Shown here piece by piece: positions 55,405-57,444 of a stretch of 64,000 nt of DNA. This stretch comes from Priestia megaterium NBRC 15308 = ATCC 14581. GTDB taxonomy: Bacteria > Bacillota > Bacilli > Bacillales > Bacillaceae_H. A model generated the notes under the pieces. The model made no database searches. It was not told where the DNA came from and worked only from the letters and a program-made list of their open reading frames with translations. The translations under genes and the position numbers were made by a program. Every line of letters begins with the position of its first letter. The first letter of the stretch is position 1. The stretch is taken from contig NZ_CP009920.1 of NCBI RefSeq assembly GCF_000832985.1, forward strand, positions 3,652,501 to 3,716,500. Direction: 5' to 3'.

Positions 55405-55869
55405 TTGAGCAATAAATTTCAACAAGTTAATGATTTTTCAATGGGAAGATTAACATCTTTACTCGTTCTTTTACATAATACGGAACTAGCTGAAGGTATT
55501 GAAAAGGAAATTAATGAGAGAGGATACAGCTATACAGTAGGAAAAGTCGGAGCGATGGAGCTGTCTAAAGTCGTGGCGGCAATTGAAACGAGCGCCAAGA
55601 CAAACAAAATTATTAATGCCCAGTCGTACCGGGAAGTTCACGCTCTTTATCATGCTATACTTGAAGCCATTCAAGGAGTTAGTCGAGGAACGCTTCAGTT
55701 GGGTGATATTTTACGAACGGTAGGACTCACATTTTCAATCGTGCGCGGAAAAATTGAGTTTTCAGGATCAAGCGATGAATGGATTAGCGTTTGTGTGTAT
55801 GGAACGATAGGTGCGCCTAAAAAAGGCTTTGAACATGATACATTAGGCTTTGGTTTTAACCACATTTAA
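55405..55869 (+). CDS. hutP: HutP-like RNA-binding antiterminator
   Basis: Histidine- and Mg2+-dependent RNA-binding protein family, 154 residues. It shares the HutP segments GRLTSLLVLLHN, GKVGAMELSKVVAAIETSAKT, YREVHALYHAILEAIQGVSRG and YGTIGAPKKGFEHDTLGFGFNHI. In B. subtilis HutP allows transcription of hutHUIGM. Here no hut gene follows. The next gene is an MFS transporter with its own promoter and a PyrR-type leader. The gene starts at TTG 55405 after GGGAGGG. Whether it still controls a hut operon elsewhere is unknown. Confidence 0.9.
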   Translation: MSNKFQQVNDFSMGRLTSLLVLLHNTELAEGIEKEINERGYSYTVGKVGAMELSKVVAAIETSAKTNKIINAQSYREVHALYHAILEAIQGVSRGTLQLGDILRTVGLTFSIVRGKIEFSGSSDEWISVCVYGTIGAPKKGFEHDTLGFGFNHI

Positions 55870-55945
55870 AAAATAATGAACGAAATAGTATGAATGTAAA
55901 AAGTGAGAGATGTACATAGCTGCTTTAAAGAAGATATTTTTCTTA

Positions 55946-55974
55946 TTGAAAGGTTCTGTGCGGCGTGTTAACAT
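55946..55974 (+). promoter_or_regulatory. Promoter of the PyrR-leader MFS transporter
   Basis: TTGAAA, a 17-bp spacer and TAACAT with an extended TG (TGTTAACAT) place transcription start near 55981. The first PyrR-type loop begins about 14 nt later. Confidence 0.6.
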
Positions 55975-55994
55975 AATGATTAATATAATAACTG

Positions 55995-56136
55995 CCTTTA
56001 AGACGGTCCAGAGAGGCCGAAAAGGACGGATCACTCATTTACTGCTTCTATGCCTATCTGTGCCCTTTTGCCCTCTGCGACAAAAGGGCTTTTATGTGTT
56101 ACTTACTTCTTTTAAACGAAGTCCAGAGAGGCTTCA
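55995..56136 (+). ncRNA. PyrR-type attenuator leader with two binding loops
   Basis: Loop 1 is CGGTCCAGAGAGGCCG (56004-56019) on a CCTTT/AAAGG lower stem. A terminator follows: GCCCTTTTG (56062) and CAAAAGGGC (56081), then TTTTATG. Loop 2 is GAAGTCCAGAGAGGCTTC (56118-56135) with a TCTTTT/AAAAGA lower stem. The TCCAGAGAGG core with bulged two-part stems is the PyrR anti-antiterminator of Bacillus pyr leaders. UMP-bound PyrR would favour termination before the downstream transporter. Confidence 0.82.
56062..56096 (+). terminator. Attenuator terminator of the PyrR-type leader
   Basis: A 9-bp stem GCCCTTTTG/CAAAAGGGC with a 10-nt loop ends in TTTTATG. It lies between the two loops, about 130 bp before the transporter start. 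Confidence 0.8.
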
Positions 56137-56223
56137 AAAGAGAATGGAGATATGTTATTTATCCATTCCTTCAAAAAAGAAAGAGCGTTGATACAGAAAG
56201 AATACACTGGAGGGTGGAACAAC

Positions 56224-57444
56224 ATGAATTATCGTAACAAGACAGTTGTAGCATCAGTAGCAGGTTTGACGTTAGAAGGGATGGACATTATGTTTATCTC
56301 GTTTGCTATGTCAATGATTATTGCTGAATTTCACATTGATTTAGCAACAGGTGGACTTATTTCTTCTATTACGAATATAGGAATGCTGATAGGTGGAGTC
56401 ATCTTCGGAATTTTAGCAGATAAATTTGGAAGAGTGCGGGTTTTCACCTACACGGTTCTTCTATTTGCAGTCGGAACGGCATTAACAGGTTTTGCAGCAA
56501 ATGTTGAACAAGTGTATGCTTCGCGATTTATTGCCGGAATTGGGGCTGGAGGAGAGTACGGGATCGGTATGGCTCTTGTAGCAGAAGCGTGGCCGAAACA
56601 TAAGCAAGGACGAGCTTCATCCTATGTTAGTATTGGCGCACAATTTGGAGTGATCCTTGCGGCGCTTTTAAGTTCTCTGATCCTGCCGATTTTCGGATGG
56701 AGAGCGCTGTTTTTTGTCGGAATCATCCCCGTCATTTTTGCTTTTATGGTACGAAAAAATTTAAACGAATCTCCTGAGTGGCTACAAGCTCAAAAAGAGA
56801 AAACAGCGGTTGTTAAAAATAATGGTAAGCTTCGTCAATTATTCGCTACGCCTAGGACGGCGATGACGACTATTTCGCTGGCAGTGATGGCTACAGTCCA
56901 AATTGCAGGCTATAACGGACTTATGATATGGCTTCCATCTATGCTTCAGCAATCACAAGGCCTCTCTGTTTCAAGTTCAGCTCTTTGGACAATCAGTACA
57001 GCCGTTGGAATGATTATAGGCATGCTAACATTTGGTCAATTTATGGACCGTTTTGGATCGAAACGTACTTTTGGAATCTTTCTTCTTGCTTCAGCTTGTG
57101 CGGTATTTTTATACTCGTATGCCGAAGGAAGTGCAGGGCTGCTTATAGGAGGAGCTGTGGTCGGATTTTTCTCAAACGGAATGTTCGCGGGATACGGAGC
57201 GTTGATCAGCAGCCACTATTCAGTAGAAGTGCGCAGCACTGCAACGAACACCATTTTTAACTTTGGGCGAGCGCTCGGAGGGTTATCACCCATTCTTGTC
57301 GGCTATCTTTTGCAAAGCTATGATATGACAGTAGCGATGACGTACTTGGCGGGGCTGTACTGTATTTCGTTTATTTTTATGGTAAGTCTTAAAAGAACGG
57401 GAGAAAAGAAAGTGAAACAAATGAACGCTCAATCTGCTCTTTAA
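56224..57444 (+). CDS. MFS transporter under a PyrR-type leader
   Basis: Twelve-helix major facilitator protein of about 406 residues. It resembles the metabolite:H+ symporter groups (AAHS/SHS-like): GLTLEGMDIMFISFAMSMI at helix 1, motif A FGILADKFGRVRVF, RFIAGIGAGGEYGIGMALVAEAWP. The ATG at 56224 follows GGAGGGTGG; an upstream frame from 56152 lies in leader RNA. Because the leader carries PyrR-type loops, an uptake role for orotate, a pyrimidine or a precursor is likely. That substrate is inference; aromatic or organic acids are the family alternatives. Confidence 0.87.
   Translation: MNYRNKTVVASVAGLTLEGMDIMFISFAMSMIIAEFHIDLATGGLISSITNIGMLIGGVIFGILADKFGRVRVFTYTVLLFAVGTALTGFAANVEQVYASRFIAGIGAGGEYGIGMALVAEAWPKHKQGRASSYVSIGAQFGVILAALLSSLILPIFGWRALFFVGIIPVIFAFMVRKNLNESPEWLQAQKEKTAVVKNNGKLRQLFATPRTAMTTISLAVMATVQIAGYNGLMIWLPSMLQQSQGLSVSSSALWTISTAVGMIIGMLTFGQFMDRFGSKRTFGIFLLASACAVFLYSYAEGSAGLLIGGAVVGFFSNGMFAGYGALISSHYSVEVRSTATNTIFNFGRALGGLSPILVGYLLQSYDMTVAMTYLAGLYCISFIFMVSLKRTGEKKVKQMNAQSAL

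Follow-up and report, generated by a model that had tools for sequence, protein, structure and literature searches.

The locus described here raises the question of why a lone MFS transporter gene should be preceded by a leader with two PyrR-type binding loops, what the second of these loops does, and what the transporter carries. We consider it probable that the gene encodes a stand-alone importer repressed by PyrR, most likely for orotate (or dihydroorotate), with loop 1 attenuating transcription and loop 2 acting after transcription. Throughout the text, "the window" denotes the whole 64-kb stretch of DNA which was analyzed.

Organization of the leader

An earlier note on this DNA had described two PyrR-type loops on bulged two-part stems, a TTGAAA-N17-TAACAT promoter upstream of loop 1 and a downstream gene for a 406-residue MFS protein, all of which were confirmed (Table 1). 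Exact loop cores were located at 56007-56016 and 56122-56131 and, allowing one mismatch, these were the only two sites in the window. Shuffled windows contained a mean of 1.97 such matches, and two or more were present in 56 of 100 shuffles. Since the 10-mer core is expected about twice per window by chance, it is no proof by itself, and the case is carried by the structure.

Table 1. Features of the leader and the transporter gene, with positions in the window
Feature	Position	Strand	Evidence
Sigma-70-like promoter TTGAAA-N17-TAACAT	55946..55974	+	Pattern scan, 9/12 matches, TG before second hexamer
PyrR binding loop 1 (anti-antiterminator, predicted)	55995..56025	+	RF00515, own covariance model, conservation and covariation
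Loop 1 parts: lower stem CCTTT/AAAGG, purine bulge, upper stem, hexaloop CAGAGA	55995..56025	+	
Proposed antiterminator	56020..56069	+	AAAAGG (56020-56025) with CCTTTT (56064-56069), duplex energy
Intrinsic terminator-like stem 56062-56089, then TTTT	56062..56093	+	-12.1 kcal/mol
PyrR binding loop 2 (predicted)	56107..56142	+	RF00515, own covariance model, orthologue counterparts
Loop 2 parts: lower stem TTCTTTT/AAAAGAG, bulge, upper stem, hexaloop CAGAGA	56107..56142	+	
Type-R hairpin GAATGGA...TCCATTC	56142..56168	+	Conserved among type-R leaders
Shine-Dalgarno (SD) GGAGG	56209..56213	+	Sequence; -15 from ATG; counterparts in orthologues
MFS transporter gene, 406 aa, predicted orotate/H+ symporter	56224..57444	+	406 codons 56224-57441, then stop

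Based on the Rfam model RF00515, loop 1 scored 44.7 bits (55991-56096) and loop 2 scored 39.9 bits (56105-56162). Both scores are under the gathering score of 54 bits, which is why a default Rfam scan of the window is empty. In the complete genome (5.7 Mb) the two loops ranked fourth and fifth, with E values of 1.5e-4 and 1.15e-3; ranks one to three were attenuators of the pyr operon (62-70 bits), and the match below the loops had 32.4 bits. Both loops possess the RF00515 architecture of hexaloop CNGNGA, upper stem, 5' purine bulge and lower stem. Our own covariance model, built from 43 rows which included both window loops, gave 43.8 bits for loop 1 and 52.9 bits for loop 2, the next match in the window being 19.5 bits. 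A pyrR gene is present in the same genome (NF003549, 275.7 bits, cut-off 138), and the second pyr-operon attenuator of this genome carries the core TCCCGTGAGGC, which is frequent in loop 2 of the orthologues.

Promoter-like sites numbered three in 401 bases versus 0.9 in shuffles, which is weak evidence when taken alone, and the mean promoter score upstream of loop 1 was 9.9 across 81 leaders versus 9.0 in shuffles. Directly upstream of the leader, at 55405-55869, lies a gene of the HutP family (PF09021, 95.2 bits), a family of RNA-binding regulators.

Conservation of the double-loop leader

The orthologue set comprised the best 80 of 111 relatives, all named Bacillales, giving 81 leaders with that of the window; the window protein was 98% identical to its orthologue in Priestia aryabhattai. 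Both loops were found upstream of the gene in 78 of the 80 orthologues with a loose script (core with at most two mismatches, pairing in both stems) and in 73 with a strict one (at most one mismatch, more pairs demanded), while a counterpart of loop 2 was present in all 80 according to the loose script. The two remaining loci were settled by eye: loop 1 lies at -725 in L051, apparently displaced by inserted sequence, and its core is one base short in L090. Elsewhere in the loci of this set, with both strands counted, there were 118 loose and six strict matches in 1,075,861 positions, one of the six being the displaced loop 1 of L051 itself. L033, L051, L075 and L089 contain extra sequence, either separating the two loops or 3' of loop 2 ahead of the gene, and all of them retain both loops. 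Where the transporter gene of L038 should begin by the alignment, its assembly has neither a start codon nor an SD.

Among 199 genomes taken evenly from the order, ten (own genome included) possessed an orthologue of at least 75% identity; this sample is not independent, since six of the ten are shared with the set of 80. Both loops were present at no more than one mismatch in nine of these; the tenth, L121, has loop 1 and a changed loop 2 whose closing positions are altered on both sides and, by eye, still pair. Three relatives of 42-44% identity in this draw had no loops. The gene neighbourhood is unconserved, the commonest neighbour family occurring in 11 of the 80 loci. Since the neighbours are shuffled and the leader is kept, leader and gene form what behaves as a single unit; its patchy distribution suggests transfer or loss.

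Covariation was assessed on 43 aligned loops (27 of loop 2 and 16 of loop 1), hand-chosen from the 81 leaders. With related rows inflating all of the figures, the covariation score was 0.330 versus 0.222 in shuffles (0 of 500 as high), pairing cells made up 87.2% versus 81.3, cells changed on both sides numbered 50 versus 19.4, and pairs with both-sided change numbered seven versus 4.5 (5 of 500 shuffles as high). Further pair types were not unusual in this alignment (20 versus 18.3; 71 of 500 shuffles as high), and the covariation score dropped once the partner column was slid. The hexaloop of loop 1 was CAGAGA in 71 of 80 leaders; that of loop 2 was CNGTGA in 71 of 81 leaders and CAGAGA in nine. 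The own genome has CNGTGA in its second pyr attenuator too, which supports a loop 2 of this kind as a PyrR site. The predicted PyrR control of the MFS gene, which had been put forward in the earlier note, is strongly supported by this conservation of paired loops.

Loop 1 as a probable transcription attenuator

A terminator-like stem with a T-run was identified 3' of loop 1 in all 81 leaders. The stem of the window is among the weaker ones (-12.1 kcal/mol), and no terminator was listed in a stricter pattern scan of 55900-56300 because the loop is of about 10 (maximum 8) and the run is of four T (five T in eight demanded). The intrinsic terminator previously placed between the loops thus stands as a stem with counterparts in every leader, one that a stricter definition misses. 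In the window, AAAAGG of loop 1 is able to pair with CCTTTT of the terminator, and this pairing excludes both loop 1 and the terminator. In the window the antiterminator duplex had an energy of -13.9 versus -9.9 in shuffles, and 71 of the 81 leaders surpassed their shuffle mean. A terminator and a competing antiterminator, as expected of RF00515 members, accompany loop 1 of the window and are lacking at its loop 2. As far as its sequence tells, loop 1 reads as a classical attenuator, the logic of loop 1, antiterminator and terminator matching the textbook mechanism of PyrR attenuation as given in passages of PMC4347634 and PMC7430163.

Two designs of loop 2

The position of the SD relative to loop 2 defines two designs. 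Type S, with 28 of the 80 loci (16 of them labelled Neobacillus), has the SD 4-5 bases past the core and inside the 3' arm of loop 2 in all 28 cases. Type R, with 52 of the 80 loci and the window, has it at least 59 bases beyond the core, the distance in the window being 76 nt. Two type-R outliers, L051 (extreme by its insert) and L038 (without aligned start codon or SD), were omitted from the type-R counts (n = 51). In a protein tree of 81 sequences the designs were split on one branch (support 99/94), corresponding to one change. The overlap of loop and SD that characterizes a translational repressor was found in 28 of 80 orthologues and is absent from the window.

The effect of holding loop 2 was predicted by folding, for which only free and bound states were compared; an "off" state was set aside because in it the loop bases were forbidden from pairing at all. 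In type S the mean unpaired probability of SD plus start fell from 0.54 with the loop free to 0.33 with the loop held (28 leaders), the decrease exceeding 0.05 in 22 of 28 and an increase of that size being seen in none; for the SD alone with a shorter stretch the values were 0.27 and only 0.19, the sign being reversed in some loci. In type R they were 0.37 and 0.35 (51 leaders; lower in eight, higher in two), and in the window 0.56 with loop 2 free or held. Type S reads as direct translational repression by loop 2. The suggestion in the earlier note that loop 2 acts in another way, such as on translation, is well supported in the 28 type-S leaders; for type R, and with it the window, we can only infer such an action, and predicted folding gives it no support.

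The hairpin GAATGGA...TCCATTC of the type-R leaders has nearly invariant arms and a loop of very variable length. When RNAalifold was applied to the type-R alignment, loop 2 was paired and this hairpin was not. The hairpin lies over a short frame near 56145 and is kept while the length of the frame varies; among leaders translated by eye the lengths were so widely different that the upstream frame was rejected as coding. Together with CCTTC, the 3' arm is complementary to the ribosome-binding region, with a mean of -12.4 kcal/mol versus -6.5 kcal/mol in shuffles and a better value in 51 of 51 leaders. For the match between the element and the ribosome site of its own locus, an equal or better value was obtained in 1 of 2000 and 3 of 5000 permutations, a result which kinship inflates. 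The coding bases +37 to +65 pair equally well with the element (-12.5), the ribosome site being better in only 19 of 51 leaders; for these coding bases 1908 of 5000 permutations were as low. An extended hairpin excluding loop 2, seen on reading a few type-R leaders, was not common to the others and was discarded. An attempted thermodynamic proof of a type-R switch failed, folding showing hardly any change in accessibility.

Alternatively, loop 2 of type R may be non-translational, serving as a sponge for PyrR or in mRNA stability, or being a second attenuator whose terminator was lost, and the chance of this is substantial, if somewhat short of even. The near-constant accessibility agrees with it, as do hairpin arms which hardly vary and which RNAalifold leaves unpaired; the absence of a terminator after loop 2, noted earlier, also held, since on reading the window no hairpin with a T-run was found between loop 2 and the gene. 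Loop 2 has nevertheless been kept in the type-R leaders, the adjoining element is matched in every leader counted and fits the ribosome site of its own locus better than those of other loci (subject to the kinship mentioned above), and the sister type-S design sets loop 2 on the SD.

Homologues outside the order

Seventeen homologues outside the order were collected, four on named plasmids (of Limosilactobacillus reuteri, Limosilactobacillus fermentum, Latilactobacillus curvatus and Enterococcus gallinarum) and 13 from genomes of the class. In a tree of 55 sequences they joined 12 Bacillales rows with support of 99/99, one very long outgroup row calling for caution. Eight of the 17 (L147, L149, L150, L153, L154, L162, L164 and L169), 42-51% identical to the window protein, carry an SD-adjacent hairpin with hexaloop CAGAGA or CUGUGA and a varying stem; no SD-near hairpin was seen in L148, L155-L160, L167 and L168. 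A strict definition recovered six of the eight. It occurred 12 times in 500,066 positions (these and overlapping stretches), once elsewhere and 11 times in transporter leaders, of which four were repeats from the overlapping L206, L209 and L210 and two were loop 1 of L169.

A canonical loop 1 is present in L162 and L169 as well, and on reading a terminator-like stem comes after it; the RF00515 scores there are 46.0 and 48.8 bits. With our own covariance model (R1), this loop 1 was matched at 25.8 bits (E 0.02) in L169 and, weakly, at 19.3 bits (E 0.44) in L162; the match in L164 was a loop lying on the same strand as the divergent pyrF-pyrE genes. None of the SD-near hairpins of these homologues was found by R1. 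They are termed PyrR-like only, because the TCC..GGC letters of the upper stem are missing; the likeness is one of shape and loop and not of family score. A pyrR gene was found in all five of the genomes checked.

The transporter and its predicted substrate

The protein belongs to the MFS (PF07690, 188 bits, cut-off 33.4), and its predicted structure is helical, with a pLDDT of 80.2 and a pTM of 0.81. Its best NCBIfam match was TIGR00895 (aromatic acid/H+ symporter), at 282.8 bits under the cut-off of 418.55. SLC22 proteins were among the 57 PDB sequence matches. The sub-cut-off resemblance to the aromatic-acid symporter subfamily fits orotate, which is a carboxylate.

The neighbours of the Bacillales orthologues were abandoned as a clue to the substrate, none being widely shared; a pyr gene within about 3 kb was found in 0 of the 80 loci. 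Gene context was taken from related transporters which are only about 40-47% identical to the window protein. The MFS gene lies 3' of carB-pyrK-pyrD-pyrF-pyrE in G162 (NCBIfam identified pyrD, pyrF and pyrE; carB and pyrK were assigned by reading), 3' of pyrF-pyrE in G857, and divergent from pyrF-pyrE in G834. The products of pyrE and pyrF are the enzymes turning orotate into UMP.

A set of 14 loci of one related family, drawn from 13 genomes, was examined over stretches of 15-17 kb. Near the MFS gene, a carbamoylase gene was found in 12 loci, a dihydroorotase/allantoinase-like gene in 11, a second dihydroorotate-dehydrogenase pair (PyrD and PyrK) in 10 and an IclR regulator in nine; L137 had none of these neighbour genes. 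The full enzyme set would convert orotate to dihydroorotate, carbamoyl-aspartate and aspartate in turn. A carbamoylase gene was observed beside the related MFS gene in L125, L126, L130-L136 and L138-L140, clusters which mostly include a second PyrK/PyrD pair, a dihydroorotase-like gene and an IclR regulator and which look like orotate-degradation operons. No such neighbours were found in L129. A dihydroorotase-like amidohydrolase or carbamoylase gene lies beside the MFS gene in six of six loci from L170 to L175, and enzymes of the pyr pathway or of orotate degradation were absent from 15 of 23 further stretches, loop-bearing ones among them. Based on the gene context of these relatives, orotate is our best guess for the substrate. 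The import of orotate proposed earlier is favoured by those relatives having pyrF-pyrE or degradation genes next to the MFS gene, and other relatives without such neighbours do not speak for it.

PyrR control could be right and the substrate another, such as uracil, uridine or another nucleoside, dihydroorotate or N-carbamoyl-aspartate, which we regard as rather unlikely. The catabolic clusters would also fit dihydroorotate or carbamoyl-aspartate, and on the Enterococcus gallinarum plasmid (L148, 4530-9156) the homologue is accompanied by PucR, a uridine-phosphorylase-like gene (162.7 bits, cut-off 280.3) and deoB, a context that points to nucleosides. Against a different substrate, a PyrP/UraA-like uracil permease already follows the second pyr attenuator in the pyr operon (by reading), and pyrE and pyrF adjoin the MFS gene in the three genomes named above.

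Proposed mechanism

For the stand-alone importer repressed by PyrR, the following sequence of events is proposed. When UMP/UTP is plentiful, PyrR would hold loop 1, the antiterminator would not form and transcription would stop at the terminator; when pyrimidines are short, the antiterminator would form and the gene would be transcribed. Transcripts reading through would carry loop 2 as a second PyrR site acting post-transcriptionally. In type-S relatives loop 2 would bury the SD directly, while in type R, to which the window belongs, it may act via the adjoining hairpin, the 3' arm of which could alternatively pair with the ribosome-binding region.

A more far-reaching reading, which taken as a whole is possible and somewhat doubtful, would have a single leader exert PyrR control twice (on transcription and on translation) over an orotate importer, the design being an old one, as loop 1, terminator-like stem and SD-near loop in L162 and L169 might indicate, and the second tier of type R having become a new RNA switch, with the local hairpin arm and the ribosome-binding region as alternative partners of TCCATTC. 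That the loops are a chance or vestigial resemblance, as the expected frequency of the 10-mer core and the sub-threshold Rfam scores might suggest, is hardly credible and was ruled out by their conservation in the orthologues examined and by the background counts (about 5 strict matches per million positions).

Comparison with known systems

PyrR loops, attenuation and MFS carriers are already known. In the open-licence literature covered, which included main-text passages of PMC3766115 (RegPrecise RNA regulons), there was no report of two differently acting PyrR loops per leader or of a PyrR-controlled orotate importer family. If true, the present proposal would put a name to a family of orotate importers in Bacillota and widen the PyrR regulon to genes outside the pyr operon; it would also be an instance in which a single protein acts at two levels of control through two sites of the same leader. 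Passages of PMC4342826 describe a Bacillus methanolicus MFS gene preceded by both a PyrR motif and a SAM box, as well as further PyrR matches beside SAM boxes and T-boxes.

The Lactococcus orotate transporter OroP, which shares the predicted substrate of the window transporter, is classified as TC 2.A.7.21.4 in a passage of PMC12802215 and, judged by this TC number alone, belongs to another transporter class than the window protein, an MFS member (PF07690). URAT1 has been reported to carry orotate, according to the title of Miura 2011 as cited in PMC11528023. The window protein resembles the aromatic acid/H+ symporters (TIGR00895) and the SLC22 organic anion carriers, being related by its best NCBIfam match and by PDB sequence matches, respectively, but it falls below the TIGR00895 cut-off and is regulated differently.

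With the Bacillus subtilis pyr attenuators (RF00515) the leader shares the bulged loop, the hexaloop CNGNGA, the antiterminator and terminator after loop 1, and PyrR as the proposed regulator; it differs in serving a lone MFS gene and in having two loops per leader, the second without a terminator. In Mycobacterium smegmatis, PyrR represses translation through a loop at the ribosome-binding site. The type-S leaders, with their loop at the ribosome-binding site, resemble this arrangement, whereas the window's type R keeps its SD outside the loop, and the leaders described here belong to Bacillota and combine the second loop with an attenuator in the same leader.
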